Shown: one piece after another, positions 1,823-26,244 of the stretch | Layout of the letters: each line of letters begins with the position of its first letter | Numbering within the stretch: position 1 is the first letter of the stretch | Source: an uncultured Oscillospiraceae bacterium | GTDB lineage: Bacteria; Bacillota; Clostridia; Oscillospirales; Oscillospiraceae | NCBI GenBank assembly: GCA_947629975.1 | Contig: CANRFU010000004.1 | Location: 1-42,987 of the forward strand | Length of the DNA: 42,987 nucleotides | Reading direction: 5' to 3' | Position numbers and translations under genes: made by a program | The notes under the pieces: generated by a model | The model's database searches: none | What the model was told of the DNA's origin: nothing | The model's input: the letters and a program-made list of their open reading frames with translations, nothing else

Positions 1823-3594
1823 AGCTCCTCACCTGCCTTTCTGATGACCTCGTCGATCTCCCGCTCCATATCGGACACGATGTCGGCGTAGACCTGCACA
1901 TACTTCTCGGCGGGGACGGACTTGGCCCGGCCCACCCGCTCCCGGGCGGGGATGTCGAACAGTTTGGCGGCGGGGGCGCCCTTGGCGATGGCCTCCCGGC
2001 ACAGCTTGTCGTAATAGAGGATCATGGCCAGCAGCTTTTCCTGTCGGTCGTAAGTGGAGAAGGAGTCGATGTCCACAAAGGAGTTCTGCTGGAGGAAGTC
2101 CTCCCGGACCATCCGGGCGGACTCCAGGGTCAGCTGGTCGTTGGGGGACAGGGAGTCCTTGCCCACCAGCTGGACGATCTCATTGAGGCTGGCCTCGCTC
2201 TGGAGCAGCCCCATGGCCTGTTCCCGGTTCTTCAGGAAGTCCCGGCCCAGGTTCTCGTCGAACCAGGGCTTCAGGGAGTCCAGGTACAGGGAGTAGGAGT
2301 TCAGCCAGTTGATGGCCGGGAAGTGGCGCTTATAGGCCAGGGAGGCGTCCAGGGCCCAGAACACCTTGACGATGCGCATGGTGCCTTGTGAGACGGGCTC
2401 GGACAGGTCGCCGCCGGGAGGGGACACGGCGCCCACGGCGGTGAGGGAGCCAGCCCGCTCGTCGGTGCCCAGGCAGGACACGGCGCCCGCCCGCTCGTAG
2501 AACTGGGCCAGACGGGAGGCCAGATAGGCGGGGTAGCCCTCCTCGCCGGGCATCTCCTCCAGACGGCCGGACATCTCGCGGAGGGCCTCGGCCCAGCGGG
2601 AGGTGGAGTCGGCGATGACGGCCACGTCGTAGCCCATGTCGCGGAAGTACTCGGCGATGGTGATACCGGTGTAGATGGACGCCTCACGGGCGGCCACCGG
2701 CATATCGGAGGTGTTGGCGATGAGCACGGTGCGCTTCATCAGGGTCTCGCCGGTGCGGGGGTCCACCAGCTCGGGGAACTCCCGCAGCACGTCGGTCATC
2801 TCGTTGCCCCGCTCGCCGCAGCCGATGTAGACCACGATGTCCACGTCGGACCACTTGGCCAGGGCGTGCTGCATGACGGTCTTGCCGGAGCCGAAGGGGC
2901 CGGGGATGGCGGCGGTGCCGCCCTTGGCCACGGGGAAGAAGGTGTCCACGATGCGCTGGCCGGAGGACAGGGGCCGCAGGGGCGGGAATTTCCGCTTATA
3001 GGGCCGGCCCACACGGACAGGCCACCGCTGGCTCATGGTCAGCTCCACGTCGGTGCCGTCGTCCTTCGTCAGGACGGCCACCACCTGCTTCACGTTGTAG
3101 GAGCCGGCGGGGGCGACGCTCTTGAGGGTGCCGTGGAGGGTGGGGGGCACCATGATCTTGTGGAGCACCACCGGAGTCTCGGGAACGGTGCCGATCACGT
3201 CGCCGCCGGTGACCTTGTCGCCGGCCCTGGCCACGGGGGTGAACTCCCACAGCTTCTCCGGATCGATGGCGGGGACCTCCACGCCCCGGGGGAGGTTGTT
3301 GCCGTGGACCTTCTTCATGATCTCCTCCAGGGGGCGCTGGATGCCGTCGTAGATATTCTCGATCATGCCGGGGCCCAGTTCCACGCTCATGGGGGAGCCG
3401 GTGGTGACCACCTCGGTGCCGGGGCCCAGGCCGGAGGTCTCCTCGTACACCTGGATGGAGGCGGAGTCGCCCGTCATGGTGAGGATCTCACCGATGAGGC
3501 GCTCGGGGCCCACGCGGACCACGTCGGACATGTTGGCGTCCGCCATGCCGGTGGCCACCACCAGGGGGCCGGAGACCTTGACTACTTTACCCAT
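1819..3594 (-). CDS. ntpA: V-type ATP synthase catalytic subunit A
   Basis: Catalytic subunit of the V1 head. The 591-residue protein carries a Walker A P-loop GPFGSGKT at about residues 232-239. It also has the extra 'bulge' domain between the N-terminal barrel and the nucleotide-binding domain that separates A subunits from F-type beta subunits, and the catalytic segment around CGERGNEM. I place the start at the ATG at 3594 ([10 protein letters not shown]), because the AAGAAGG ribosome site is about ten bases away; a TTG three codons upstream is too close to it. The gene lies 32 bases after subunit F and overlaps subunit B by four bases. Confidence 0.97.
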
Positions 3595-3626
3595 AGATTC
3601 CAAACCTTCTTTCTAAGGTCGATTTC

Positions 3627-3941
3627 TTACAAAATGTCGGCGCCCACGGCGCGTTCCACTGATTTTTTGATGTTGGCCATGCCCAGCCCCAGGCTGCCCT
3701 CCTTGCCGGGGATCAGAATGATGGCGGGGGTGAGGGCGTCCTTGTAGCGGTTCACGTCGGCCTCCATCTGGACGGCCAGCTGCTCGGCGAGATAGACCAC
3801 CGCATAGTCCTCTTTCGCGATGCGGTGGAGGGTGTGGCGGGCGTCGTCCAGACTTTCCACGGGGAACACGTCCAGCCCCAGGGCCTTGAAGCCCAGCACG
3901 CTGTCCTTGTCGCCCATGACGGCGATGCGGTAATTTGCCAT
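3627..3941 (-). CDS. ntpG: V-type ATP synthase subunit F
   Basis: Small central-stalk subunit (called F in general nomenclature, NtpG in Enterococcus hirae). The 104 residues begin MANYRIAVMGDKDSVLGFKALG, the usual Rossmann-like start of this family, and contain DYAVVYLAEQLA and a terminal IPGKEGSLG segment. The reading frame is open from a GTG three codons earlier, but GGAGG ends only a few bases before the ATG at 3941, so that ATG is chosen. It lies between subunits C and A, as in other clostridial V-ATPase operons. Confidence 0.95.
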   Translation of the reverse strand: MANYRIAVMGDKDSVLGFKALGLDVFPVESLDDARHTLHRIAKEDYAVVYLAEQLAVQMEADVNRYKDALTPAIILIPGKEGSLGLGMANIKKSVERAVGADIL

Positions 3942-3954
3942 ATTCGCCACCTCC

Positions 3955-4956
3955 TCAGCAGTAGCCGCGGCGAAGCCGCTGGCGGATGGTGGCGCCGTCC
4001 AGCCCGGCCATGCGGCCGGCCAGGATGATGCGGATGGCGGTGGCCTCCGCCTCCCGGGCGTACAGGTAGCCGATGACCGGCTCCACGCCGAAGGGCACCA
4101 TACGGGCTTTGGCGAGGTACGCCATCACCGCGTCGTCGCACGCCCGCTCAAAGTCGGTGAGGGGGCCGCCGCCGGGATGGGCCAGCGCCGCGCCCGCCTC
4201 GGCGGCCTCCCGGAGGGCCGTGCCCTTGAAGAGCCGGTCCAGCTGTTCGCCGGGGGCGTTGGCGATGGTTTCCGGGTCCACATTGCCGCCGGGGACCAGC
4301 ACCTGCCGGAGGAACTGGGGCCCCTTGTCCAGCCGGGCGGCCCGGACGGCCGCGCGGAGGTTGGCCGCGTCGATGGCGGTCCTGGCGTATCCCTCCAGGA
4401 AGGCGCTGCCGGACTGCTTGGCCAGGGCGGTCAGCTCCTCAAAATAGGCCCGGTCCAGGGCGAAGTCGGCCTGCTGGGGGTCGCCGGTGGAGCCCAGCAC
4501 CTCCCGGGCGCGGGCCACGCCTTTGCGGAAGATGTCCGAACAGGCGGACAGATCCTCCCGGCGGTAGTCCTCGGCCAGATCGGCGGGGGCGTACCGCCCG
4601 CCGCCCAGCAGGAGCCGGTCCTGATTGGTTCCCAGGGCGCCGGCCTTCACCAGCACCTTGGCGTTGTGATAGTCGTATTTGCAGCGGAACACGTCCAGCA
4701 GGGCCGGATCGTTCACCGCGCTCCCCAGGTCGGCGAACACGTCGGCCTGGGCCTGGGCCAGCAGCTCCTCCAGGGCGGAGGGGGTGGCCGACGCCAGTTC
4801 GGGGTAGCCGCACTCGGCCAGCACCTTGGCGGCCTCGGCCGCGTCCCGGGCGTCGATCATCCGCTCCATCCGTTCAGTGGTGAGCAGCCTGGTCTCCAGC
4901 ACCCGGACCCGGGCGGAGATATACAGATAGTCGGTGTCTTTGATCTTTCTCAACAA
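3955..4956 (-). CDS. ntpC: V-type ATP synthase subunit C
   Basis: Subunit C (called d in eukaryotes) is the funnel that connects the central stalk to the membrane rotor. The 333-residue product is of normal family length, largely helical, starts LLRKIKDTDYLYISARVRVLE and contains the DYHNAKVLVKA segment typical of the family. The probable start is TTG at 4956, preceded at six bases by AAAGGGGG; no ATG lies nearby in frame. It sits 13 bases upstream of subunit F and 35 bases downstream of subunit E. Confidence 0.93.
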   Translation of the reverse strand: MLRKIKDTDYLYISARVRVLETRLLTTERMERMIDARDAAEAAKVLAECGYPELASATPSALEELLAQAQADVFADLGSAVNDPALLDVFRCKYDYHNAKVLVKAGALGTNQDRLLLGGGRYAPADLAEDYRREDLSACSDIFRKGVARAREVLGSTGDPQQADFALDRAYFEELTALAKQSGSAFLEGYARTAIDAANLRAAVRAARLDKGPQFLRQVLVPGGNVDPETIANAPGEQLDRLFKGTALREAAEAGAALAHPGGGPLTDFERACDDAVMAYLAKARMVPFGVEPVIGYLYAREAEATAIRIILAGRMAGLDGATIRQRLRRGYC

Positions 4957-4991
4957 GGTGTTCCCCCTTTCATCGGGTGTCAGGGGGCGGA

Positions 4992-5582
4992 TCAGTCGAA
5001 CAGCACTTTGGCCACCTGGCCGGCCAGCGCGCCCCGCTGGAGCCGGATCAGGGTGTCAAAGGTGCAGTTGACCTCCGTAACGCCGCCGCTGAGGATGAAG
5101 CCGCCGTCCATGGGGCGGGTCTCCTCCGCCAGGGTGAGGGCGGCGGAGGGGCCGATCTTGGCGTTGGCGGCCACCACCACGGCCTTGCCCACCCTGGCCC
5201 GGTCGGTCTGGGAGAAGATGAGCTTCTCCCTGGCGGTGGAGGAGGCCTTCACCGCCAGAGAGGCCAGCAGGGCCACATATTCCCCCTGGGGCAGGGCCAG
5301 CAGCTTCTCCTTGGCCCGCCGGAAGGCCAGATCGATGACCTCCTGCTTGGCGGCGAGAACGGCCTTGCGGCACTCCAGCTGATCCACGCTGGCCAGCCGG
5401 CTCTCCCGTTCGGCGGCGGCCTTCTCGCCCCGGGCCACGATGTCGGCGGCCTCGGCCTCGGCCTGGGCCTGATACCGGGCGGCGATGTCCGCCGCCTGGG
5501 CCTTCGCCTGGGCCAGCAGAGCGTCGATCTCCTTCTGGCTGTCCTCCTCGATGCGGGCGGTGATCTTTTCGATTCCGTTCAT
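4992..5582 (-). CDS. ntpE: V-type ATP synthase subunit E
   Basis: Peripheral-stalk subunit E, which with subunit H forms the stator that stops the A3B3 head from turning. The 196 residues show the expected plan: a long charged N-terminal helix rich in Ala, Glu, Lys and Gln (residues 1-80, likely coiled coil) and a globular C-terminal domain ending GGVTEVNCTFDTLIRLQR. The ATG start at 5582 follows an AAAGGCGG ribosome site at about ten bases. It lies 27 bases after subunit K. Confidence 0.92.
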   Translation of the reverse strand: MNGIEKITARIEEDSQKEIDALLAQAKAQAADIAARYQAQAEAEAADIVARGEKAAAERESRLASVDQLECRKAVLAAKQEVIDLAFRRAKEKLLALPQGEYVALLASLAVKASSTAREKLIFSQTDRARVGKAVVVAANAKIGPSAALTLAEETRPMDGGFILSGGVTEVNCTFDTLIRLQRGALAGQVAKVLFD

Positions 5583-5609
5583 ACAGTCAATACCGCCTTT
5601 CCCAGCGGA

Positions 5610-6104
5610 TCAGCCCAGGGGATAGAGCATGACCAGCAGGATGGTGGCCAGCAGAGACAGGATGGCGTAGAACTCCACGATGCCGCAGAGGATGATGCCC
5701 TTGGTGGATTCCTCGGGGCGCTTGGCCACGATGTTGATGGAGGCGGTGGCCACGCGGCCCTGAGCGATGGCGGACAGCAGGCCGCCGAGGGCGATGGGCA
5801 GGCAGGCGCAGAAGATGGCCAGGCCGTTCTGGATGGTGAGGGTGGCCCCGCCGCCGCCGAACACGCCGATCTTCAGCAGGACCATGAACCAGGCCACGAT
5901 GCCGTACAGGCCCTGGGTGCCGGGAAGCACCTGGAGGATCAGGCACTTGGAGAACTGCTCGGGGGCCTCGCTGATGACGCCGGTGGCGGCCTCGCCGGTC
6001 ATGCCGGTGCCTTTGGCGGAGCCGACGCAGCACAGGGCGACGGCCAGAGCGGCGCCCAGATAGGCCAGGCCGATGCCGCCGAAAGACTCAAAAAAAGCTT
6101 GCAT
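5610..6104 (-). CDS. ntpK: V-type ATP synthase subunit K, sodium-type proteolipid
   Basis: Membrane rotor subunit made of two fused hairpins (164 residues, four membrane helices). The second hairpin carries the ion-binding glutamate E144. In the E. hirae NtpK ring Na+ is held by a Leu-Thr-Gln-Gln-Glu set; the equivalent residues can be read here as L60, T63 and Q64 (VLPGTQGLYG), Q115 (AIAQGRV) and E144 (IVEFYAIL). This predicts a Na+-coupled rather than H+-coupled enzyme, though coupling is inferred from sequence. The ATG start lies two bases after the subunit I stop (TAACATG), so translation is coupled. Confidence 0.96.
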   Translation of the reverse strand: MQAFFESFGGIGLAYLGAALAVALCCVGSAKGTGMTGEAATGVISEAPEQFSKCLILQVLPGTQGLYGIVAWFMVLLKIGVFGGGGATLTIQNGLAIFCACLPIALGGLLSAIAQGRVATASINIVAKRPEESTKGIILCGIVEFYAILSLLATILLVMLYPLG

Positions 6105-6105
6105 G

Positions 6106-8091
6106 TTAGTTTTCCTCCTTAATGATGTCAGTGTATTTTGTTTCTATCGCCAGGGGACGGTAAGGTTTGCCGCCCTCCTTGTAGAACCGGTTGAAAAACT
6201 CAAGACACTGGAGCCGCAGGTCGTGGACATAGCAGCCCAGCAGGTTCAGGGCCATGTTCAGGGCGTTGCCCACCATGGAAATGACCACGAACAGGACGAC
6301 ACCGACCACCGGGACGGTCCCCACCGTGGCCCCCAGGGTGTTGAACACCGAGGCGATGACGCTGCCGGACAGCATCAGGGCCATGAGCCGGATGTAGGAC
6401 AGCGCGTCGCTGAAATAGCCGGTGACGCCGTTGTACACAAGGCCCACCAGGCCGGTGACCTTGCCGAAGCCCTTCTCGTTCCGGGTGCCGCCGATGGCCA
6501 GCATCAAAAAGCCCACGATGATGACCACCGTGCCCACCGCAGTGGGGAAGGAGGCGATGCCCATGGCGCTCACCACCAGCAGGGCCAGCCCCGCCAGGAT
6601 GATCCACCAGGTGAACTCGTCGAACAGGGCGTCGATGAAGTTGCCGTCCCTGATCTTTTTGACCACGCTCACCGTCATGCCGGTGAAGATCTGGATGACG
6701 CCCAGCACAATGGAGCCCACCATGATGGCCACCGTGTCGTCCAGGGGGGTGAACAGGGCGGGCATCTCAAAGGTGCTGTTGGGGTCGATGAGTTTGAGCA
6801 GCTGGGGGATGAAGTCCCCGAAGAAGCCGCCGGTCATGGCCCCCACGATAAAGGTGCTGACGCCGCACCAGAACACCAGCTCCATGAAGTTGCGGGTGCC
6901 CTCTCTGGGCCTCGTCTTCAAAAGGACCACCAGGGCGGCGGCGATCATCAGGATGCCGTAGCCCATATCGGCCATCATGAAGCCGAAGAAGAAGATGAAG
7001 AAGGGGGCCATCAGGGGGTTGGGGTCGATACCGTCGTACGCCGGCAGGGAGTACATCTCGGTGACCACGTTCATGCACCGGTCGAAGATGTTGTTTTTCA
7101 GCTTGACGGGCACCTGGGGGTACTCCTCCTCGGTGGGATCGGCGGCCTCACAGGCGCAGGCGAAGGGGGCCAGGGCCTTCTCCACCTTGTCCAGCTGGTC
7201 GGCGGGCAGCCAGCCGTCCAGATAGAAGGCGGCCTCCGTGTCCACCAGGCGGGCCTTGCCCTCTTCCCGGCCGATCTCCTGCATCGAGCGGTCCACGCAC
7301 CGGCGCAGGGTGTCCCGCCGGTCCGCGAAGGAGGCGATGCGGTCTTTGTGCTCCTGTTCCTCCCGGTCCAGGGCGGCCAGCTTGTTATCGATGGCGCGGA
7401 TGTTGTCCTCCGCCGTGCCGGTCCAGCCCCGCAGATTCACGCGGGAAAACCCGAAGGGCCGCAGGGCCTCGGCGCAGTCATGCTCCACGCTGGCGTGGCA
7501 CACCAGCAGGAAGTACCGCAGTTCCCGGTCGTGTCCGGCGGGATAGAGCTGGGCCAGTTCGGTGGACTCGGCCACCGCGCCCTCCAGGGCGGCGAAGTCC
7601 ACTTTGGAGGGGGCCGCGCCAAAGATCACCGACACATTTGCCGTGCTCTCCTGATCCAGGGGCACGTCCAGGGACGACCAGGGTTCCAGGGAGGCCCGCT
7701 GGGTCTTCAGCTTGCCCTGCTCCGCCTGACAGGCGGCCAGGGCCTTTTCCTCCCCGGCGATCTGCCGGGCGGCCTCCAGGCCGGAGGCGTAGGCGCTGTC
7801 GTCGAAGAGATCCGCCTCGCTGACCTCGGGCCGGACGGAAAACAGGCCGTCCTTCGCCGGAGCATACTTGCCAAGGGACGTGAGCGCGCCGGCCAGCAGC
7901 TGGTTCTGCTCCTTCGCTCGGCTGAGGCCGGAACCGTCCGGCTTTGCCAGAGCGGCCCAGTCCGGATCGCTCAGGTCGATCTCCGGCTCCCGCAGCTCTA
8001 CGCAGCCCATGCTCTGGAGCAGGCGGAGCAGATCCTCCCGGTCCGAGCGCAGGCCCATGAGCCGCAGCCGCTTCATTTTGACGATCGCCAT
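6106..8091 (-). CDS. ntpI: V-type ATP synthase subunit I
   Basis: Stator membrane subunit (called a in eukaryotes), which forms the ion half-channels next to the K ring. The 661-residue product has a soluble N-terminal half (about residues 1-330) that contacts the peripheral stalks. The C-terminal half has about seven to eight membrane helices, including FFFGFMMADMGYG and the segment around SYIRLMAL with the conserved arginine that faces the rotor carboxylate. The start is the ATG at 8091 (MAIVKMKRLRL), overlapping the subunit H stop by one base (TGATG). Upstream in-frame codons belong to the H gene region read in another frame. Confidence 0.95.
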   Translation of the reverse strand: MAIVKMKRLRLMGLRSDREDLLRLLQSMGCVELREPEIDLSDPDWAALAKPDGSGLSRAKEQNQLLAGALTSLGKYAPAKDGLFSVRPEVSEADLFDDSAYASGLEAARQIAGEEKALAACQAEQGKLKTQRASLEPWSSLDVPLDQESTANVSVIFGAAPSKVDFAALEGAVAESTELAQLYPAGHDRELRYFLLVCHASVEHDCAEALRPFGFSRVNLRGWTGTAEDNIRAIDNKLAALDREEQEHKDRIASFADRRDTLRRCVDRSMQEIGREEGKARLVDTEAAFYLDGWLPADQLDKVEKALAPFACACEAADPTEEEYPQVPVKLKNNIFDRCMNVVTEMYSLPAYDGIDPNPLMAPFFIFFFGFMMADMGYGILMIAAALVVLLKTRPREGTRNFMELVFWCGVSTFIVGAMTGGFFGDFIPQLLKLIDPNSTFEMPALFTPLDDTVAIMVGSIVLGVIQIFTGMTVSVVKKIRDGNFIDALFDEFTWWIILAGLALLVVSAMGIASFPTAVGTVVIIVGFLMLAIGGTRNEKGFGKVTGLVGLVYNGVTGYFSDALSYIRLMALMLSGSVIASVFNTLGATVGTVPVVGVVLFVVISMVGNALNMALNLLGCYVHDLRLQCLEFFNRFYKEGGKPYRPLAIETKYTDIIKEEN

Positions 8092-8405
8092 CAGTCGCCG
8101 CCCACCTTTCCAACGATCAGATCGGCGGCCTTGTCCAGACGGCTCATGGCGGCCTGCTTCAGCGCCTCGCACTTTCCGGCGTTTTCCGCCAGCGTCCGCC
8201 TGGAGGTCTCGCCGGCCCTGGCCTCGGCCTGGGAGAGCAGCTCCTTTGCTCTGGCCTCCGCCCGGTCGCGGGCGTCCGTCACAGCCTGCCTCCCGGCCCG
8301 CTCCGCCTCGGAGACGATCCGTTTGCACTCCTCCGCCGCCTGGGCCTTGCGCTGCTGGACGGCCTGCTCCGCCGCTGTGACCTGTTGAATGGCCTCAAAG
8401 GACAT
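8091..8405 (-). CDS. V-type ATP synthase subunit H (peripheral-stalk subunit)
   Basis: First gene of the ATPase operon. The 104-residue product starts MSFEAIQQVTAAEQAVQQRK and is almost entirely a charged helix rich in Ala, Glu, Arg and Gln, matching the small stator subunit that pairs with subunit E (NtpF in Enterococcus, H or G elsewhere). An in-frame GTG lies three codons upstream, but the ATG at 8405 is better spaced from the GAGGTGAGG ribosome site. The family is weakly conserved, so the call rests on length, coiled-coil composition and position. Confidence 0.88.
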   Translation of the reverse strand: MSFEAIQQVTAAEQAVQQRKAQAAEECKRIVSEAERAGRQAVTDARDRAEARAKELLSQAEARAGETSRRTLAENAGKCEALKQAAMSRLDKAADLIVGKVGGD

Positions 8406-8832: not shown

Positions 8833-8880
8833 TCCAGAAAGGAAGTCCCCCATCTGACGATGGGGGACTTCCTTTCTGGA
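8833..8880. repeat. Perfect 22-bp palindrome abutting and including the tRNA 3' end
   Basis: The arms at 8833-8854 and 8859-8880 are exact inverse complements around a four-base loop TGAC. The outermost four bases of the right arm (8877-8880), read on the minus strand, are the discriminator T and CCA of tRNA-Gly, so the hairpin starts inside the tRNA 3' terminus. There is no T run after it; the true terminator is further on. It may guide 3' processing of the precursor or be a relic of DNA insertion. Confidence 0.85.
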
Positions 8881-8952
8881 GCGAGTGACGAGGCTCGAAC
8901 TCGCTACCTCCACCTTGGCAAGGTGGCGCTCTACCAGATGAGCTACACTCGC
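8877..8952 (-). tRNA. tRNA-Gly (anticodon GCC)
   Basis: A complete 76-base cloverleaf is readable on the minus strand. The acceptor GCGAGTG pairs with CACTCGC, the D arm is GCTC/GAGC, and the anticodon stem is CCACC/GGTGG with loop TTGCCAA, giving anticodon GCC. A five-base variable loop and the T arm GCGAG-TTCGAGC-CTCGT follow. The discriminator is T and the CCA end is encoded. It has its own promoter just upstream and a terminator downstream, so it is a single-gene unit between the lipoprotein gene and the ATPase operon. Confidence 0.97.
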
Positions 8953-16875: not shown

Positions 16876-17964
16876 ATGTCCGGGCGGAAAGAGTACAGCC
16901 GATATCAGGGTTACCGGGGGGGAGGAAGCGGAAGCGTCCTCCTCAAGGTGATCGTCATCCTGCTGGCGGTCCTTCTGCTGGCCGGCCTGATCTTTGTGGT
17001 CTTTTTCATGGGGGAGTACATGGAGTACACCGACGAGGGCCCCCAGTTCCACCCCCCCTGGGAGGACGCGGAGTCGGCGCCGCCGGAGATCCCCTCCGAC
17101 CCGGTGGTGGTGGACGATCCCGTCGTGGTGAGCAGCGACCCGCCCAGGCCGCTTGAGCCGAGCGGGCCGGGTCCCGCCCAGCTGCCGGCGCCCGAACCCA
17201 TTCGCGCGCTGGAGGTCACCTCCGCCCAGGTCGGCGGCGGCCAGGCCGCTCAGCTGGCGGCGGCGGCCCAGGCCAACGCCCTGGTGGTGGAGATGAAAAA
17301 CGTCAACGGGATGCTGGCCTGGAGATCCGCCTCGGAACTGGCCGCCTCCATGAATGTGAATGCCCCGGACGACTCTGTGTCCGGCGCGGTGCGCGCTCTG
17401 GCGGCGGAGGGGAATCTGTACCTGGTGGCCCGCATCCAGTGCTTCCGGGACCCGCCCCTGTCCCTCAGCGCGGACAGCCTGCCCACCTGGTCGGGTGAGG
17501 TCTGGCTGGACGACCAGGGCCTGTCCTGGGCCACCCCGGTCAGCCAAAAGGCCACCGACTATATCACCGCTCTGTGCCTGGAACTGGCGGACATGGGCTT
17601 TGATGAGATCGTGCTGGATTCCTCCGGCTTCCCGGAATCCGGCGATCTGAGCACCCTGGCCCAGGGCGCCGCGCGTCCCGCCGAGATGAGCGGCACGGTG
17701 ACGGCGTTCTACGCCAGGCTCAGCGCGGCCATGGCCTCCACCGGCGTCCGCCTGTCCGTTCAGGCCAGCGAGCCTATGCTCCGGGGGGAGATCCAAAGCA
17801 GCGGCCTCACCGCCGCCCTGCTGGCCCGGTATGCCCAGCGGGTGTGGCTGCCCGCCCCGCAGAGCGGGACCGATTACGCGGCCATCCTCACCGACGCCGG
17901 AATGAACAGCGCCTCCGCGAGGATCGCCGTGCGGACGGACACCGGCTGGAGCACGCCGCAGTGA
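16876..17964 (+). CDS. Membrane-anchored DUF4015-like putative glycoside hydrolase
   Basis: A 362-residue protein with a short basic N-terminus, one membrane helix (about residues 24-47), a Pro/Val/Asp-rich linker to residue 110, and a C-terminal (beta/alpha)-barrel-like domain. The markers NALVVEMKNVNG, LYLVARIQCFRD, WSGEVWLDDQGLSW and MGFDEIVLDSSGFP follow the order seen in the putative glycosyl hydrolase family DUF4015 (PF13200). Catalytic residues of this family are not well defined, so activity on a cell-surface glycan is an inference. The ATG follows GGGAGG by six bases. It is probably exported and tethered outside the membrane. Confidence 0.78.
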   Translation: MSGRKEYSRYQGYRGGGSGSVLLKVIVILLAVLLLAGLIFVVFFMGEYMEYTDEGPQFHPPWEDAESAPPEIPSDPVVVDDPVVVSSDPPRPLEPSGPGPAQLPAPEPIRALEVTSAQVGGGQAAQLAAAAQANALVVEMKNVNGMLAWRSASELAASMNVNAPDDSVSGAVRALAAEGNLYLVARIQCFRDPPLSLSADSLPTWSGEVWLDDQGLSWATPVSQKATDYITALCLELADMGFDEIVLDSSGFPESGDLSTLAQGAARPAEMSGTVTAFYARLSAAMASTGVRLSVQASEPMLRGEIQSSGLTAALLARYAQRVWLPAPQSGTDYAAILTDAGMNSASARIAVRTDTGWSTPQ

Positions 17965-18086: not shown

Positions 18087-19529
18087 TCAGCGGCCTCCGC
18101 CCGCCCTGAAATAGTCCTCCAGCGCCTCCCACTCGGAGAAATGCCGCCGGACGCCGTTTCTCTCAATGTAGTCCTCGTGGCCCTTGCCCAGAAGGGCCAC
18201 CAGGTCGCCGGAGCGGGCCATGTCCAAAGCGGCGAAGATGGCCTCCCGGCGGTCCGGGACGGTGACGTGGGGGATGGCGTCCCCGATGGCGGCGGCGATC
18301 TGGGCGCAGATGTCCTCCGCCCGCTCGGACCGGGGATTGTCCTCGGTGAGGACGGCATAGTCGGCGAACTGGGCGGCGGCCCGGCCCATATCGACGCGGC
18401 GGATGGGAGGCCGGTCGCCCCCCGCGCCGAACAGGGCGATGATCCGGCCCTCCACATGGGGCCGGAGGGCGGAGAGCAGGGCCCGGAAGGACTGGCCGTT
18501 GTGGGCGTAGTCGATGAGGATGGAATAGGGGGCTGGTGCGGGATAGAGCTGGGCCCGCCCCGGCACGGAGACCTTCGCCAGCCCCCGGCGGACGGCCGAG
18601 TCGTCCACCCCAATGGTGCGGCAGAGGGCGATGGCGGCCAGGGCGTTGGCGGCGTTGAACTCCCCCGGCATGGAGATGAGATAGGGCTCGGGAGAGCCCG
18701 CCACGGCGAGCCGGGAGGACAGGCCCTCCGGGGGCAGGAGGGCGCCTCGCACGTCCGCGCCGGAGCACATCCCGAAGGTAAAGGCCGGGGCGCCGGGGCG
18801 GAGTTGGGCCCGCATGGCGGGCCAGGCGGGGTCGGCCAGATTGCCCACCGCCACCCGGCACTGGCGGAAGAGGGCGGCTTTGCAGGCGCGGTACTCGGCA
18901 AGATCGGCGTGCTCATATTCGCCGATGTGGTCGGGGGACAGGTTGAGGAACAGCCCCGCGGCGAAGTCGATCCCCTCCACCCGGCGGAGCTTCATGGCCT
19001 GGGAGGACACCTCCATGACCACGTGGGTGCAGCCCCCGTCGGCCATCTGCCGGAGGGTCCGGTGGAGGGCGATGGGCTCCGGGGTGGTGTTGGCGGCGGG
19101 GGCGATGAGGCCATCGCCGAGAAAGGAGCCCAGGGTGCCGATCATGCCGCAGCGGCGACCCGCCTCAGTGAGGATGGCGCGGAGCATATGGGCGGTGGTG
19201 GTCTTGCCCTTGGTTCCGGTGACGGCCAGCATGGTCATCTGCCTTGCCGGCCAGCCGTAAAACTGGGCGGCGATGGGCCCCAGAGCGGCCCGGGGGTCGT
19301 CCACGGCTACGGCGGGGACCCCTTCCGGCAGGGGCGGGGCGCAGAGGACGGCGGCGGCCCCCCGCTGAATGGCCTCCCCGATGTGGGCATGGCCGTCCTC
19401 CCGGGCGCCGGGGAGGGCAACGAACAGCGCGCCGGGGCGTACCTCCCGGGAGTCGCAGGCGAGAGAGGCGATCTCCGCGTCGGCGGGGCAGGACAGGCGC
19501 AGTACGGACAGCAGACGGGACAGCTTCAT
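18087..19529 (-). CDS. murE: UDP-MurNAc-tripeptide synthetase MurE (meso-diaminopimelate type)
   Basis: Adds the third amino acid to UDP-MurNAc-L-Ala-D-Glu in the cytoplasm. The 480-residue protein has the three Mur domains: the uridine-binding N-domain, the P-loop GTKGKTT (105-111) with TTPEP (148-152) and the probable carbamylated lysine K217, and a C-domain with DYAHN and DNPR (397-400). DNPR is the signature of meso-DAP-adding MurE. The usual GDRDxxKRP stretch reads GDRPPIRR, a small deviation. The ATG at 19529 follows AAAGGGGG by seven bases. It lies downstream of the Mur-kinase fusion gene but is separated from it by a terminator, so it may have its own weak promoter (TAATAT near 19560). 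Confidence 0.93.
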   Translation of the reverse strand: MKLSRLLSVLRLSCPADAEIASLACDSREVRPGALFVALPGAREDGHAHIGEAIQRGAAAVLCAPPLPEGVPAVAVDDPRAALGPIAAQFYGWPARQMTMLAVTGTKGKTTTAHMLRAILTEAGRRCGMIGTLGSFLGDGLIAPAANTTPEPIALHRTLRQMADGGCTHVVMEVSSQAMKLRRVEGIDFAAGLFLNLSPDHIGEYEHADLAEYRACKAALFRQCRVAVGNLADPAWPAMRAQLRPGAPAFTFGMCSGADVRGALLPPEGLSSRLAVAGSPEPYLISMPGEFNAANALAAIALCRTIGVDDSAVRRGLAKVSVPGRAQLYPAPAPYSILIDYAHNGQSFRALLSALRPHVEGRIIALFGAGGDRPPIRRVDMGRAAAQFADYAVLTEDNPRSERAEDICAQIAAAIGDAIPHVTVPDRREAIFAALDMARSGDLVALLGKGHEDYIERNGVRRHFSEWEALEDYFRAGGGR

Positions 19530-19577
19530 GGGATTTCCCCCTTTGTTTGAGCTGCCCCATATTATGATTTGGACGCG

Positions 19578-19611
19578 AAAACGGTCCCTCCGAAGCTGGA
19601 GAGACCGTTTT
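19578..19611 (-). terminator. Intrinsic terminator after the Mur ligase-kinase fusion gene
   Basis: AAAACGGTC (19578-19586) and GACCGTTTT (19603-19611) form a 9-bp stem extended by a further CTCC/GGAG after one mismatch. On the minus strand it begins 16 bases after the fusion stop codon and ends in four Ts; on the plus strand it is followed by more Ts. It separates the fusion gene from murE. Confidence 0.75.
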
Positions 19612-19626
19612 TTTACCTGTTTCCGC

Positions 19627-21996
19627 TTATTTCGTGAAGATGGTGCCGGCCACCCGCTCGTGGAGCGTGTCCAGCAGCAGGGCGTGCTCGGTGGTGCCGT
19701 CCAGCACCGACACCTCCCCCACCCCGTGTTCCAGGGCGTGGAGGCAGCCCGTGACCTTGGGGACCATCCCCCCGGCGATGAGGCCGGCGTCCAGCAGCTC
19801 CCGGGCCCGCTGGGCGTCCATGCGGGCCACGGCGGTGGACTGGTTGCGGCTGTCGATGCGCACGCCCCCCACGTCGGTGAGGAATACCAGCCGGTTGGCG
19901 TGGAGGGCCTCGGCCACGGCCTGAGCCGCGTCGTCGGCGTTGCAGTTGTAGCCCGCGCCGTCCTCGCTTCCGGCGATGGGGGAGACCACGGGGAGGAACC
20001 CCGCGCCCAGCAGGGTGTCCAGCAGCCGGGGATCCACATTGGTGATCCGGCCCACCCGGCCCAGGGCGGGGTCCTTGCACTCCGCGGTGAGGAGCCTGCC
20101 GTCCTTGCCGGAGACCCCCACGGCGGACACGTCCAGCCCGTTCAGGGCAGACACGATGGACTTGTTCACCTGAGCGGACAGGGCCAGTTCGGCGCACTCC
20201 AGGGCGGCCCCGTCGGTGACCCGGTAGCCGTTCTCAAAATGAGTGGGCACGTTCAGCCGGTTCAGCAGGGCGGTGATGTTCTTCCCGCCCCCGTGGACCA
20301 GGACTACCCGGATGCCGGACATCTGGAGCACCGCCACGTCGTGGAGGATGGAGTCCACCGCGCCGCCGGGGCCCAGAGCGGAGCCGCCGTATTTCACCAC
20401 CACGGTGGTCCCCGCCTGCTGCTTCAGCCTGGGCAGCACGTAGGACAGGGAGCGGGCCTTCTCCAGTCCGTCCAGGTGGTGGGTCACGTCGTACTCCCTC
20501 AGCCAGGTCTGGGCGTATTCCACATCGGAGGGGGTGTCGATGTATTCAAGCCCCCGCTTCTGCCGGGTCTCGGCCCCCTTGCCGGTGATGAGGATGACGG
20601 TGGGGGTCTCGCAGCCCAGCACCGCCTGGCGGATGGCCTCCCCCCGGTTGGGCTGGATGACGTACCGGCAGCTCTGCTCCGCCACATGGGCCGCGATCTC
20701 CTTGCAGATGGAGACGGTGTCCTCCTCCCCGGAGTCCTCCTCGGTGAGGACCACCAGGTCGGAGTATTTTCCCGAGATCTCCCCCAGGTCCCGCCGGCGG
20801 TCCAGGGCCTTCTTGCCGGGGCAGCCGAACACGGTGACGATCCGCCGGCCGGGGTACTCCTTTTGGACCGAGCGGAACAGGGTCTCAAAGCTCATGCGGT
20901 TGTGGGCGTAGTCCACGATGGCGGTGACGCTGTCGTCCGCGTTGGTGTAGACCTCCATCCGGCCGGGGACCCGGGCCTTCATCAGCCCCACGTAGATGCA
21001 CTGCTGGGGGATGCCCAGGGCCTGACATACGGCGATGGCGGCCAGGGCGTTCTCCACGTTGAACAGCCCCGGCATGGTGAGCTGGAACTCCCTGGACAGG
21101 TGCTGGAAGGTCACCCGGAAGATGATGTCCGTCCCCCGCTTGCGGACGTCGGACCCGTACACGTCGGCGGAGGGGTCCTTCTGGGAGAAGGTGATGATCC
21201 GGCGGCAGTCCCGGCGGGCGGCGGCCAATATCTCCTCCGCGTGGTCGCTGTCCAGGTTGACGCAGGAGGTGGACGCCTGGGCGAAGATCTTCAGCTTGGA
21301 GTGGAAGTAGTCGTCGAAGTCCGGGTGCTCGATGGGGGAGATGTGGTCGGTTCCGATGTTCAGGAAGGCGGCGGCGGCAAACCGGGTGCCCAGGGTCCGG
21401 TGGTACTTGAGGGCTTGCGAGGACGCCTCCATCACCAGATAGCCCAGTCCGGCGGACAGGGCGTTGGCGAAGTGCTTCTGGAGCTCCAGGGGCTCCGGGG
21501 TGGTGAGGTGGGACTCGAACTTCTCCACCCCGTCCCAGGTGTCGATGGAGCCGAGCACGCCGCAGGTCACCCCCCTGGGGGCCAGGTACTCGTCCAGGAT
21601 GTATTTCAGGTAGTAGGCGGTGGAGGACTTGCCCTTGGTGCCGGTGATGCCGATGACGTTCAGCCGCCGGGAGGGGTCGTTGTAGTACTTCACCGCCATG
21701 GGGGCCATGGCCCGGCGCATGTCGCTGACCAGAATGCAGGGCAGAGCCACCTCCGGGTAGGGCCGCTCGCTGACATAGGCGAAGGCCCCCTTTTCGGCGG
21801 CTTGGGCCAGATACTCAGGCTTGAAGTGGGCCCCCTTGCAGATGAACAGGGTGCCGGGGATCACCTCATTGGAGTTGTAGGACACCAGCTCCACCGTGCG
21901 GTCCAGGTCCAGGTTTTCAGGCAGAGGGGCGGAGAGCAGCCCCTCCCGGCCCAGCAGGGCGGCGTATTCCCGAAGGGGGTACAGGGTCAGGTCCAT
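19627..21996 (-). CDS. Mur ligase fused to N-acetylglutamate kinase (MurE-like/ArgB-like)
   Basis: A single uninterrupted 789-residue frame. Residues 1-500 form a full MurE-type ligase: N-domain, P-loop GTKGKSS (119-125), TTPEPLEL (165-172), probable carbamylated lysine K234 and DYAHN (362-366). Where MurE has DNPR it reads TEEDSGEED (418-426), so the added amino acid is probably not DAP and cannot be told from sequence. From about residue 512 the chain is a complete amino-acid kinase of ArgB type: the N-helix KARSLSYVLPRL seen in arginine-sensitive kinases, KYGGSAL (535-541), VHGGGKN (567-573), ENGYRVTDG, VGVSGKDG, NCNADDAA (684-691) and GGMVPKV with the catalytic lysine K747. Both halves look active. 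The ATG at 21996 follows GGAGG at eight bases. It is 45 bases after the racemase gene. Confidence 0.92.
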   Translation of the reverse strand: MDLTLYPLREYAALLGREGLLSAPLPENLDLDRTVELVSYNSNEVIPGTLFICKGAHFKPEYLAQAAEKGAFAYVSERPYPEVALPCILVSDMRRAMAPMAVKYYNDPSRRLNVIGITGTKGKSSTAYYLKYILDEYLAPRGVTCGVLGSIDTWDGVEKFESHLTTPEPLELQKHFANALSAGLGYLVMEASSQALKYHRTLGTRFAAAAFLNIGTDHISPIEHPDFDDYFHSKLKIFAQASTSCVNLDSDHAEEILAAARRDCRRIITFSQKDPSADVYGSDVRKRGTDIIFRVTFQHLSREFQLTMPGLFNVENALAAIAVCQALGIPQQCIYVGLMKARVPGRMEVYTNADDSVTAIVDYAHNRMSFETLFRSVQKEYPGRRIVTVFGCPGKKALDRRRDLGEISGKYSDLVVLTEEDSGEEDTVSICKEIAAHVAEQSCRYVIQPNRGEAIRQAVLGCETPTVILITGKGAETRQKRGLEYIDTPSDVEYAQTWLREYDVTHHLDGLEKARSLSYVLPRLKQQAGTTVVVKYGGSALGPGGAVDSILHDVAVLQMSGIRVVLVHGGGKNITALLNRLNVPTHFENGYRVTDGAALECAELALSAQVNKSIVSALNGLDVSAVGVSGKDGRLLTAECKDPALGRVGRITNVDPRLLDTLLGAGFLPVVSPIAGSEDGAGYNCNADDAAQAVAEALHANRLVFLTDVGGVRIDSRNQSTAVARMDAQRARELLDAGLIAGGMVPKVTGCLHALEHGVGEVSVLDGTTEHALLLDTLHERVAGTIFTK

Positions 21997-22041
21997 GTGC
22001 ATGGCCTCCAAATCGTCTTTTGTGAGAACAGGTTCTAAGGT

Positions 22042-22749
22042 TCAGATGGTGCGCAGGGGATAGCCGCAGGCGGCGATGGCCCGCTCGGCCAGCACCATCA
22101 TGGCGTCGGTGTAGAAGGGGGGAAGGGGGTGCCAGGTGGCGAATACCGACAGCTCGGTGCAGGCCAGCACGGCGCAGTCGCATCCCAGCCGCCGGATGGC
22201 CTTGTCGATCTTGGCAAACTTCTCCCGGCTGCCCTTCTCCCCCTGCTTGATCTCGTCGTAGATGATGGACATGACCAGCTTCTGGGTGTCCGGGTCGGGG
22301 ACGGCGGCCTCCAGCCCCAGGGCGGCGAATTCCTTTTGATAGAGCTCCGTCTGGATGGTGCCGTCGGTGGCCAAAACGCCGGGGCGCTTTTTCCCCTGGG
22401 CGGCCAGCAGCCCGGCGGTCTCCCGGATCATGTGGAGGATGGGCACGCCCACCTCCCCCTGGAGCCGGTCCACAAAGTAGTGGGAGGTGTTGCAGGGAAT
22501 GGCCAGGACGGTGCAGCCGCACTGTTCCAGCAGCTTGGCGTCGGCCAGCAGGCGGGTATAGATGCCGGCGGTGTCCCCGGACAGGATGGCGGCGGTGCGG
22601 TCGGGCATCCGGGTGTCGGACAGGATCAGGGTGGGCACGTGCTCCTGATCCCTGGCTGCGTCGGTGCGGTCCAGCACGAACTGATAGAAGGTCTGGGAGG
22701 CCTGAGGGCCCATGCCCCCCAGCACCCCTAATTTCGCCTGCTTGTCCAT
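22042..22749 (-). CDS. Aspartate/glutamate racemase family protein
   Basis: A 235-residue cofactor-independent amino-acid racemase. The start KLGVLGGMGPQAS is typical of the aspartate/glutamate racemase superfamily, and the two catalytic cysteines are present at C86 (AIPCNTSHY) and C197 (VLACTEL). The pattern is nearer to aspartate racemase (and YgeA) than to MurI glutamate racemase. The gene starts three bases after the stop of the ATP-grasp gene, so the two are probably translated together. In Enterococcus faecium an aspartate racemase gene likewise accompanies the D-aspartate ligase gene. Substrate (Asp or Glu) is inferred. Confidence 0.88.
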   Translation of the reverse strand: MDKQAKLGVLGGMGPQASQTFYQFVLDRTDAARDQEHVPTLILSDTRMPDRTAAILSGDTAGIYTRLLADAKLLEQCGCTVLAIPCNTSHYFVDRLQGEVGVPILHMIRETAGLLAAQGKKRPGVLATDGTIQTELYQKEFAALGLEAAVPDPDTQKLVMSIIYDEIKQGEKGSREKFAKIDKAIRRLGCDCAVLACTELSVFATWHPLPPFYTDAMMVLAERAIAACGYPLRTI

Positions 22750-22752
22750 GTG

Positions 22753-23970
22753 TCAGTCCTCCGGCCTCTTGCAGTATTTGTTGAAGCGGACCCAGTTGCC
22801 CACATGGTTCTTCCAGATCTTGAGCCGGCGGCTCAGAGAGGCGTCCCCAGCGTACTCCATGGAGTGGTGGTCCGCCCCGGCCCTCACCAGCGCCTTCATC
22901 TGAGCGTGGTAGCGCTTGGGGATGAACTTATAGGCCACGAATTTGGGCACCATCCGCCACAGGGACTGGTTTTTGGTGACGGTGAGAGGCAGGTCCCTCC
23001 CCTCCACCAGGTCGCCCACCAGGTACTCGGCGATGTTGTGGCCGGATCCGGTGACGTAATAGTTGCTCCGCCCCTGGCGGCAGTTGATCTCGAAGGCCTT
23101 GTACTTCCCGTCCCGCTGGTCGAACTTGATGTCGAAGTTGGAGAAGCCCACATAGCCCTGGTCCTCCAGCATCCCCCGGATCTTCTCGCTGAGGGCCTCG
23201 TCGTATTCGGTGACGATGACGGCGTGGTTGCCGATGCCGTGGGGGGAGTGCTCCTCCAGCAGGGTGTGGCCTAGGCACATGAGCTTCACCTTTCCGCGGG
23301 TGTCGGAGTAGTTGGTGAGCACCCGCATATAGGTGTCGTCCCCGGGGATGAACTCCTGGAGGATCATCTTGCCCGGATAGCCGGCGGCGTAGACCTGGTC
23401 CAGGGCGGCCAGCAGCTCCTCCCAGCTCTGGCAGACGTACACCTTTTTCAGCTCCCGGTGGCCGGTGGCCCAGTAGGCCACCCCGTCGGCGGGCTTGGCG
23501 ATGTAGGGCGCCCCCCAGGGCAGGGTGAAATCGTGGCCCATGGACCCCTCGTACACGAAGGTGGCCGGGTGGTCGATGCCGTATTGGTCGCAGAGCTGAT
23601 AGAACTGCTCCTTGTCGGTGAGCCGGTCCAGCATCTCCCCGCTGATATAGTTGCACTTCACGTTGGCGGGGAACCGGTCCTTCAGATGGGCGGCCAGCTT
23701 CACGTAGCTGTCGCCGCAGCCCACCACCAGCACCGTCCTGTCCGGGCACTCCGCCGCCACGGTCCGGACGTTTCGGAGAAAGGCCTCCGCGTCCTCGTTT
23801 TCCGCGCAGGAGCGGTAGTCGATGATGGCGCTGCCGGAACAGGGGAAGGTGCCGGCGAACTTGCCGTAGGCGATGCTCTTGACGCCATAGGCCTCGTGGA
23901 AGGCCCGGGCCACGCTGTATACGTTGATGTCGCCGCCAAAGAGCAGCGGCTGGAAATCGGGTGTGGACAT
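22753..23970 (-). CDS. ATP-grasp ligase, D-aspartate ligase-like
   Basis: A 405-residue ATP-grasp carboxylate-amine ligase, expected in the cytoplasm. The N-terminal FGGDINVYSVARAFHEAYG, the central LQEFIPGDDTYMRV and the C-terminal FEINCRQGRSNYYVTGSG resemble, from memory, the D-aspartate ligase of Enterococcus faecium (Aslfm), which attaches D-Asp to the stem-peptide lysine. A racemase gene directly follows, as would be expected for a D-amino-acid-using ligase. The neighbouring MurE is of DAP type, so a classical Lys-linked D-Asp bridge is not expected, and the acceptor is unknown. ATG at 23970 with AAAGGAG ten bases upstream; the gene is 18 bases after relA. Confidence 0.83.
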   Translation of the reverse strand: MSTPDFQPLLFGGDINVYSVARAFHEAYGVKSIAYGKFAGTFPCSGSAIIDYRSCAENEDAEAFLRNVRTVAAECPDRTVLVVGCGDSYVKLAAHLKDRFPANVKCNYISGEMLDRLTDKEQFYQLCDQYGIDHPATFVYEGSMGHDFTLPWGAPYIAKPADGVAYWATGHRELKKVYVCQSWEELLAALDQVYAAGYPGKMILQEFIPGDDTYMRVLTNYSDTRGKVKLMCLGHTLLEEHSPHGIGNHAVIVTEYDEALSEKIRGMLEDQGYVGFSNFDIKFDQRDGKYKAFEINCRQGRSNYYVTGSGHNIAEYLVGDLVEGRDLPLTVTKNQSLWRMVPKFVAYKFIPKRYHAQMKALVRAGADHHSMEYAGDASLSRRLKIWKNHVGNWVRFNKYCKRPED

Positions 23971-23988: not shown

Positions 23989-26244
23989 TCAATCGGAAGT
24001 CTGGGCGCCGGCCCGCCGCACCAGGAACACGCCGGGGATCTGGGACAGCTTGTTGACGACGGCGCTGACCTCCGAGCGGTCCTTGACGGACAGCTCCAGG
24101 AACACGACGGCGTAGCCGTCGGGCTGGCTGCGGGCGGAGAGGTTGTTCACCTTCACCTTCTGGGCGGACAGCACGGTGGCGATGTCCAATGCCAGGCCGT
24201 CCCGGTCCTTGGCGGAGATGTCCAGCGAGGTGCGGTAGGCGGCCTCGGCGGCGTCGGCGGCCCAGGTGACCTTCACCCAGCGGCCCCGCTCCTCCGGCTT
24301 GCGGCGGGCGGGATCGGCGTTGGGGCAGTCCTGCCGGTGGATGGAGACGCCGTAGCCCCGGGTGATGAACCCCACCACCGGATCGCCGGGGACGGGGGTG
24401 CAGCACTTGGAGAACTTGACCATGCAGTTGTCCAGCCCCTCCACGATGATGCCGCTGGTGGACTTGCTCTGGCCGGCGGAGGGCGCGGCCTTGGCGGAGG
24501 CGGGGAAGATGGCCTCCCCGGCGGAGGACGCGGCGGCCTGGAGGGTCTCCTGCTCGGCCCGCTGGCGCTCCAGCCGGCCCAGGCGGGTCAGCTCCTCCTT
24601 GATGCGGCCCGCCGCCTTCTGGGCGGACATACCGCCGTAGCCGATGGCGGCGTACAGCTCGTCCAGAGAGCCAAAGCGCAGCTGCTTCATCAGGGCGTCC
24701 AGCACCTGGTCGGAGGCGGTGACGGCGGCCAGGGTCAGCCCTGCGTGTTTCAGCTCCGATTCGAACATGGCGCGGCCGGTGGCGATGTTCTCCTCCCGCC
24801 GCTCCTTCTTGAACCACTGCCGGATCTTGTTGCGGGCCTCGTTGGACTTGCAGATCTTCATCCAGTCCCGGCTGGGCCCTTTGGCGGACTTGGAGGTGAC
24901 GATCTCCACGATATCGCCGTTGGTCAGCGGGGTGTCGAAGGTGACCAGCCGCCCGTTGACCCGCGCCCCGGTCATGTGGTTGCCCACGGCGGAGTGGATG
25001 GAATAGGCGAAGTCGATGGGAGTGGCCCCGGCGGGGAGGGACTTCACGTCCCCGTTGGGGGTGAAGACGAACACCTCGTCGGCGAACATATCCACCCGCA
25101 GGGTGTGGACGAACTCGTCCGGGTCGGCGTCCTGCTGGCTCTCCAGCAGCTTGCGCACCCATTCGAATTCCTTTTCGCTGCCCAGCCTGTGGTTGGCCAT
25201 GCCCTGCTTGTACTTCCAGTGGGCGGCCACGCCGTACTCGGCGGTCTGGTGCATCTCCCAGGTCCTGATCTGCACCTCGAAGGGGATGCCCTCCCGGCCG
25301 ATGACGGTGGTGTGGAGGGACTGGTAGCCGTTGGGCTTGGGGGTGCCGATATAGTCCTTGAACCGGCCCAGCACCGGATTGAACATGTCATGGATGCAGC
25401 CCAGCACGTTGTAGCAGGCGGGGATGTCGTTCACGATGACCCGGAAGGCGTACAGGTCGAAGATCTCCTTGATGGTCTTGTTCTGGGCGTACATCTTGCG
25501 GTAGATGGAGTAGATGTGCTTCACCCGGCCGTAGACCTGGCACTGGATGCCCTCCTCGGCCAGCCGCTTTTCGATGCGCTCCTGCATACTGGCCAGAAAC
25601 TCCGCGTGGGCGGAGGTGACCTCCGCCAGCTCCTGCTCCACCTCGTCGTAGGCCACCGAATCCAGGTAGCGCAGGGACAGGTCTTCCAGTTCCCATTTGA
25701 TCTTCTGCATCCCCAGCCGGTGGGCGATGGGGGCGTAGATCTCCATGGTCTCCAGGGCCTTTTCCTTCTGCTTGGCGGTGGACTGGTACTGGAGGGTGCG
25801 CATATTGTGGAGCCGGTCGCACAGCTTGATGAGGATGACCCGCACGTCCCTGGCCATGGCCATGAACATCTTGCGCAGGTTCTCCATCTGCTCGTCCTCT
25901 TTGGAGGTGTAGTGGATGCGGGTCAGCTTGGAGACCCCGTCCACCAGTTCCGCCACCTGGCGGCCGAACAGCCGGGCGATCTCGTCGTAGGTGGCGTCGG
26001 TGTCCTCCAGACAGTCGTGGAGGAGGGCGGCGACGATGGAGTCCGGGTCCAGCTCCAGCTCGTTGACGATCTCCGCCACGGCGATGGGGTGGATGATATA
26101 GGGCTCCCCGCTCTTGCGGAGCTGGCCGCCGTGGTGGGCGTTGGCGTACTCAAAGGCGGAGCGGATGCGCTCCATATCGGCCATGCTGGTGGAGGCCGGG
26201 ATATGCTTGATCAGTTGGGTGTAGCGCTCATGGGCGATGTCCAT
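23989..26244 (-). CDS. relA: Bifunctional (p)ppGpp synthetase/hydrolase
   Basis: Makes and degrades the stringent-response alarmone. In the 751-residue Rel/SpoT protein the HD hydrolase domain is intact (HH at 37-38, HD at 76-77 in LLHDCLEDT). The synthetase domain carries RFKDYIGTPKPNGYQSLHT, whose RxKD form belongs to bifunctional Rel proteins, and EVQIRT. A TGS domain (about 395-455), a conserved Cys/His region (KCCTPVPGD) and a C-terminal ACT domain (about 675-745) follow. The ATG at 26244 has an AAAGGAGG ribosome site. It lies 34 bases after recJ, a common order in Firmicutes, although apt is missing between them. Confidence 0.96.
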   Translation of the reverse strand: MDIAHERYTQLIKHIPASTSMADMERIRSAFEYANAHHGGQLRKSGEPYIIHPIAVAEIVNELELDPDSIVAALLHDCLEDTDATYDEIARLFGRQVAELVDGVSKLTRIHYTSKEDEQMENLRKMFMAMARDVRVILIKLCDRLHNMRTLQYQSTAKQKEKALETMEIYAPIAHRLGMQKIKWELEDLSLRYLDSVAYDEVEQELAEVTSAHAEFLASMQERIEKRLAEEGIQCQVYGRVKHIYSIYRKMYAQNKTIKEIFDLYAFRVIVNDIPACYNVLGCIHDMFNPVLGRFKDYIGTPKPNGYQSLHTTVIGREGIPFEVQIRTWEMHQTAEYGVAAHWKYKQGMANHRLGSEKEFEWVRKLLESQQDADPDEFVHTLRVDMFADEVFVFTPNGDVKSLPAGATPIDFAYSIHSAVGNHMTGARVNGRLVTFDTPLTNGDIVEIVTSKSAKGPSRDWMKICKSNEARNKIRQWFKKERREENIATGRAMFESELKHAGLTLAAVTASDQVLDALMKQLRFGSLDELYAAIGYGGMSAQKAAGRIKEELTRLGRLERQRAEQETLQAAASSAGEAIFPASAKAAPSAGQSKSTSGIIVEGLDNCMVKFSKCCTPVPGDPVVGFITRGYGVSIHRQDCPNADPARRKPEERGRWVKVTWAADAAEAAYRTSLDISAKDRDGLALDIATVLSAQKVKVNNLSARSQPDGYAVVFLELSVKDRSEVSAVVNKLSQIPGVFLVRRAGAQTSD

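Follow-up and report, generated by a model that had tools for sequence, protein, structure and literature searches.

MurE tripeptide synthetases and ArgB-type N-acetylglutamate kinases (NAGK) are the closest described relatives of the protein reported here. Among the former (TIGR01085), the lysine-type enzyme of S. aureus (4c12) is without the Arg needed for DAP and binds the lysine amine through the first Asp of its pocket motif and a Glu on another loop (PMC3829189). According to the same source, this enzyme binds lysine weakly, which is made up by a high pool, and accepts ornithine 400-fold less well than lysine; besides MurE selectivity, the supply of metabolites can influence which diamino acid goes into the wall (PMC3829189). 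In lactic acid bacteria, AslA, a ligase of the ATP-grasp fold, is described as adding D-Asp to residue 3; racD lies in the aslA operon of L. lactis, and residue 3 of the L. fermentum peptide is ornithine (PMC4155827). The known fusions MurE-MurF (PRK11929; 8f5d) and NAGS/NAGK (M. maris, X. campestris) likewise join linked steps, but none of them joins wall ligation to ornithine synthesis, as the MurE::kinase described below is predicted to do. No enzyme of this architecture was found in the literature searched, in line with a sequence-only reading of the same DNA, which had known of none.

The window is the whole stretch of DNA analysed, 42,987 nucleotides of contig CANRFU010000004.1 (assembly GCA_947629975.1) from an uncultured Oscillospiraceae bacterium. 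On its minus strand, relA, ATP-grasp, racemase and fusion genes follow in this order with gaps of 18, 3 and 45 bases, the last ending at the ATG at 21996. The features are:

19627..21996, minus strand: MurE-type ligase fused to an ArgB-type kinase, 789 aa, ATG at 21996, stop at 19627
20482..21996, minus strand: MurE half, residues 6-510 of P0002, with P-loop TGTKGKSST and E425-D426-S427-G428 at the DNPR place
19630..20481, minus strand: kinase half, residues 511-794, with VKYGG, HGGG, GYR, NxNAD and GGMxPK kept and the arginine-site Gly changed to Val
22042..22749, minus strand: Asp/Glu racemase gene, nearest solved structure 1jfl (aspartate racemase)
22753..23970, minus strand: ATP-grasp ligase gene, D-aspartate ligase (AslA) kind
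23989..26244, minus strand: relA/spoT gene
18087..19529 (18087-19535 in the scans), minus strand: second, canonical MurE with the DNPR motif, downstream of the fusion

The fusion frame is intact and stays open back to a TTG at 22011 (22011-19627, 794 aa); the ATG at 21996 is the better start since a GGAGG ends 8 nt upstream of it. Profile scans assigned the first ~505 residues to a MurE-type ligase and the remainder to an ArgB-type kinase, with Pfam matches to Mur_ligase_M (122-329), Mur_ligase_C (350-479) and AA_kinase (536-770), while the N-terminal Mur_ligase domain of Pfam gave no match. Both NCBIfam models passed their cut-offs, murE TIGR01085 with 309.9 bits against 257.3 (spanning residues 38-489) and argB TIGR00761 with 226.9 against 151.3. 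The AlphaFold model (pLDDT 89.9, pTM 0.81) matched solved structures of both folds, namely MurE 2wtz (TMt 0.85) and the NAGKs 2rd5 (0.91) and 2bty (0.89). The claim of a full MurE and a full ArgB-type kinase in one frame is thus borne out, and, judged by its sequence, the protein is a MurE ligase with its own NAGK. It resembles the MurE tripeptide synthetases in the whole-length match, the P-loop, the Mur motifs and the non-DNPR pocket, and differs from them in the C-terminal kinase, the E-D-S-G motif and the operon with ATP-grasp and racemase genes.

On sequence grounds, we put it at slightly better than an even chance that an arginine-insensitive NAGK here supplies ornithine to a MurE adding it to the stem peptide, with D-Asp coming next. 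The kinase half would phosphorylate N-acetyl-L-glutamate, the committed step to ornithine, without arginine feedback, and ArgC, ArgD and ArgJ, encoded elsewhere, would complete ornithine. UDP-MurNAc-L-Ala-D-Glu would receive a basic diamino acid from the MurE half, most probably this ornithine. D-Asp made by the racemase would be joined by the ATP-grasp ligase to the amine left free on the side chain, and the product would be an A4-type Orn(D-Asp) precursor. We infer all the substrates, the order of the steps and the coupling of supply to use as the point of the fusion; the arrangement suggests that in these gut bacteria the production of a wall amino acid is coupled directly to its incorporation.

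The fusion was counted across genomes at several levels. Of 350 sampled Oscillospiraceae genomes, 74 carried this MurE family (E 1e-85 or better); 30 of these, in 10 genera, had the full fusion and 44 did not, two of the latter (G226 and G166) having a decayed kinase domain. The own genus (n = 25) had 10 fused genomes, 14 with MurE alone and one with neither. At the order level, in a sample overlapping the family one, 46 of 295 genomes matched, and the seven fused all belonged to the same family. The GTDB scan gave 19 loci, 16 of them matching at least 781 of 794 residues; L012 and L020 are truncated where their contigs end, yet include kinase sequence, and L024, from the same MAG as L012, covers only MurE and sits at the end of a contig. 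The GTDB loci include Pseudoflavonifractor, Lawsonibacter, Intestinimonas, a Ruminiclostridium MAG, a soil Oscillospiraceae MAG and a Eubacteriales MAG at 52% identity. A sequencing or strain accident is ruled out by the 10 genera that carry it. Relatives examined had either the fusion or MurE alone, never MurE and kinase as adjacent separate genes, the finding that would have spoken for such an accident. There was no convincing kinase remnant downstream of 12 unfused MurE genes (the best match, in L099, had E 0.001 and was antisense and short), and many lineages retain the operon without the kinase, which counts against the ornithine-supply reading.

Of 40 fused proteins, all but L095 and L096 retain the catalytic motifs of the kinase, and the window's protein is among the 38 that do; catalytic-residue loss in the alignment is therefore not general. 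With the MurE P-loop also present, the key residues of both halves are in place, as had been claimed. The sequence-only reading had further pointed to the N-terminal helix found in arginine-sensitive kinases. This helix is present, and the alignment to hexameric NAGKs starts in it, but it is not accompanied by the C-terminal arginine-contact residues (Glu, Gly). The arginine-feedback Gly, the first of GxGT, occurs in none of 38 fused kinases vs all 32 separate ArgB proteins, and the Glu before GxGT in 13 of 38 vs 32 of 32. The N-helix Glu is kept in 3 of 38 vs all 30 ArgB proteins with a residue there; the arginine-site His position, variable in ArgB too, holds His in 0 of 38 vs 10 of 32. In X. 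campestris NAGS-K, the changes G286P and G288S ended arginine inhibition of the synthase, and the kinase was inhibited only 33% and 25% (PMC2566978); these GxG glycines are presumably the same as those lost in the fused kinases. The fused kinase is thus apparently, by its residues, freed of arginine feedback. It shares the fold, the catalytic motifs and the N-terminal helix with arginine-sensitive hexameric ArgB (TIGR00761), from which it differs in its place behind a MurE, in the lost arginine-site residues and in its own clade apart from same-family ArgB.

A further question is whether the fused kinase serves arginine synthesis. The window's genome has argH-argC-argJ-argB-argD-argF together as a complete separate operon, so arginine synthesis does not need the fused kinase, and its role as the sole ArgB is ruled out for this genome. 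A separate ArgB was present in 32 of 36 fused genomes examined, the exceptions being G007, G225, G076 and G321. In G076 the apparent absence reflects a contig end inside argJ; G007 and G225 also gave no match to argC, argJ or argH, and are uninformative since the genomes are incomplete. The proposal that the fusion ties arginine supply to the wall survives as a supply link, but as one of ornithine: the complete separate argHCJBDF operon and the lost arginine-feedback residues make ornithine supply the better account. These data bear also on a rather unlikely alternative, in which the kinase serves as an additional NAGK, be it for arginine or for general ornithine and polyamine supply, the fusion serves co-expression only and MurE adds lysine. 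Kinase motifs identical to those of NAGK, and a pocket motif that also suits lysine enzymes, agree with it; the separate arg operon and the separate ArgB of most fused genomes disagree, as does the loss of arginine-site residues in fused copies only.

A natural test case that also counts against a second NAGK for arginine is G321, which keeps the fusion. Its argC-argJ-argD genes are contiguous (L166:2043-5586), and argB is missing between argJ and argD; argH was not found and no argF scored above the cut-off, the three carbamoyltransferase matches being weaker. G321 is a single MAG, 83% complete. In five stretches from its genus argB is in place, and of 10 other genomes of this genus, nine carry the fusion as well as a separate argB, and G642 (74% complete) has argB only. 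Since no argB was detected, the fused kinase is the only candidate NAGK of G321, and any ornithine synthesis in this organism would have to use it for the second step.

A second natural case is seen in G166 and G226, where neither the fused kinase nor the native ArgB next to argF retains its catalytic motifs, a further argC-argJ-argB set being present elsewhere in each genome. This joint decay fits a shared role, although coincidence is possible. The decayed native ArgB (L164:6406-7305 in G166, L165:5408-6262 in G226) retains the arginine-site GIGT end, possibly as an arginine-sensing relic. The fusion frames of G226 and G166 are still open (750 and 747 aa) despite the lost motifs, which, together with the N-terminal interlacing helix, would suit a kinase domain acting mainly as scaffold or sensor, its NAGK-like oligomer arraying or controlling the MurE domains and catalysis being secondary. 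We regard this as quite improbable, for the catalytic motifs are kept in the other 38 fused proteins across wide divergence, and the residues lost are the arginine-sensing ones.

Beyond the arginine site, fused kinases and ArgB each have their own fixed residue at 22 more positions family-wide, so another N-acyl substrate is possible; solved NAGKs also vary at some of these positions, and the residues therefore do not settle a change of substrate. Such differences would be expected if the halves acted in sequence on one molecule, for example with the kinase phosphorylating a glutamate that MurE has attached to the UDP-MurNAc-peptide, since glutamate bound in a peptide belongs to the N-acyl glutamates, on which ArgB-type kinases act. 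We give this very little probability. G321 keeps argJ, which serves free N-acetylated intermediates, and in G166 and G226 the fused kinase has decayed along with the native ArgB. Moreover, models of LysW-type kinases (LysZ/ArgZ) all fell below their NCBIfam cut-offs on the fusion (NF010659 131.5 vs 223, NF010661 110.8 vs 251 and NF010662 103.3 vs 194 bits). The earlier suggestion that two acyl-phosphate reactions follow each other on one substrate has fared accordingly: nothing found points there, and the argC-argJ-argD set of G321 fits ordinary N-acetylglutamate. Scarcely credible at all is a variant in which the UDP-MurNAc-peptide is an amino-group carrier, MurE attaching glutamate, the kinase phosphorylating its side chain, and ArgC and ArgD making ornithine in place; intermediates are likewise carrier-bound in the LysW route, the carrier here being a wall precursor instead.

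For the MurE half of the ornithine-supplying fusion favoured here, the choice of amino acid was read from the pocket. The DNPR motif of DAP-adding MurE occurs in none of the 74 family members, and all NCBIfam DAP-ligase equivalogs scored below cut-off for the fusion; at the DAP-binding site the Arg is absent and acidic residues are present instead. The first motif position is Glu in all 36 fused proteins read, and among 53 unfused ones 21 have Glu and 31 have Asp there, with one unread, the rows not being independent in either set. As a guess, Glu, one methylene longer than Asp, may match ornithine, one shorter than lysine. The acidic pocket itself does not imply ornithine, because S. aureus MurE disfavours it so strongly. 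The Glu state is also found in genus g95 and in G021 and G012. In the latter two, argB, argC, argJ and argH were not detected and argF is present, so Glu does not strictly mark genomes that make their own ornithine; their ornithine might come from arginine by an arginine-degrading route. In genus g95, argC-argJ-argB-argD were found in 6 of 6 genomes examined and argH was not detected in 4 of 6 (at E 1e-60), a pattern that looks like ornithine without arginine synthesis; the clusters L185-L190 have no argF or good argH beside them. In the plasmid collection, the MurE from outside the class that matched best was that of Collinsella aerofaciens (40.4%), with asnB next door; the wall of this species is of the A4 type. 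The bulk wall of the present organism may be of DAP type, because the MurE next door has the DNPR motif and mesoDAP is given for Faecalibacterium, a genus that NCBI places in the same family (PMC11382707). A DAP-type MurE beside the fusion suggests that the latter serves a second or stage-specific wall precursor, not the bulk wall.

The partner genes point to D-Asp. The ATP-grasp protein had no Pfam match, and showed 34.9% identity over 98% to a Latilactobacillus curvatus gene adjoining an amino acid racemase, 36.6% over 93% to a Lactobacillus crispatus gene adjoining asnB, and 34.0% over 97% to a Limosilactobacillus fermentum gene. It thus has both the sequence kinship and the racemase neighbour of a D-aspartate ligase (AslA), the lactobacillar comparators themselves being putative; its best fold matches include the L-amino acid ligase 3vot and PylC, solved with L-lysine-Ne-D-ornithine. 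The racemase scored 200.5 bits on TIGR00035 (cut-off 93.1) and aligns both catalytic Cys residues to 1jfl. It (22042-22749, minus strand) is also above the NCBIfam cut-off for cysteate racemase, CuyB (195.6 vs 190); this double match is likely an annotation trap. An ATP-grasp and racemase pair is common to this locus and to AslA/Aslfm with RacD of lactic acid bacteria and E. faecium, whereas the pair here belongs to a member of the Clostridia, shares one operon with MurE and a kinase, and has a DAP-type MurE nearby.

All fused loci with enough flank have the order ATP-grasp, racemase, MurE::kinase, with wider gaps in L016, L018 and L020. The same order with plain MurE was seen in 11 of 12 kinase-less same-clade relatives with flanks examined, the twelfth (L098) having MurE alone. 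More distant families have mostly MurE alone, about five stretches (L102, L104, L110, L112, L079, L085) having an ATP-grasp gene within a few kb. We infer co-transcription in the window, where the relA/spoT gene is probably transcribed together with the ATP-grasp gene; no relA was found in the available flanks of L016, L020, L021 and L022. Between the fusion and the second MurE the terminator scan listed none, and a hairpin followed by T was seen by eye near 19575-19615.

If the ornithine reading is true, a MurE with a committed, feedback-free ornithine enzyme would be a direct genetic answer to the supply problem. Ornithine and D-Asp would then be expected in the wall precursors of Oscillospiraceae from the gut, and the halves can be assayed alone, which makes the idea directly testable. 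A review table gives no wall type for Oscillibacter, and host enzymes poised to act on lysine- or ornithine-containing fragments are discussed in the same review (PMC11382707).

In the MurE tree (74 family members and 3 outgroup rows), the fused rows belong to a single clade (support 98), in which kinase-less rows are nested too. The fused proteins as one clade without losses were rejected (AU p 0.00076; 40 fused rows, two decayed included, vs 33). In a kinase tree restricted to ArgB of the same family, 38 fused kinases separated cleanly from 32 ArgB proteins. Kinase and MurE distances among the 38 were correlated (r 0.83, 0 of 999 permutations as high). One gain of the fusion and several losses are the simplest account. 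Distances to own-genus fused proteins, taken as the ratio of kinase-less to other fused lineages (20 loci, RecJ 18), were raised in one kinase-less clade for MurE (1.69) and ATP-grasp (1.24) vs racemase (0.80), RelA (0.85) and RecJ (0.87); MurE substrate-side loops had also changed there. Within the own genus the effect was small (MurE 1.11, ATP-grasp 1.12, racemase 1.05, RelA 0.97, RecJ 1.01). The rise in the first clade counts in favour of the ornithine-supply reading, the weak own-genus effect against it. Branch lengths had a median of 0.656 in fused and 0.989 in unfused rows (p 2.7e-8, the tips being non-independent). The dN/dS (NG86) was below 1 for both halves in 6 of 6 pairs, with a dS that looks low; since the kinase exceeded MurE in L047 (0.39 vs 0.32) and L051 (0.57 vs 0.45) and dS is seemingly low, motif conservation is preferred as support.

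Elsewhere in the window, a DUF4015 putative glycosyl hydrolase gene (16876-17964, plus strand) is convergent with the second MurE. Translations at 440-8328 (minus strand) read as a run of putative V/A-type ATPase subunits, near which lies a tRNA-Gly (8877-8952).
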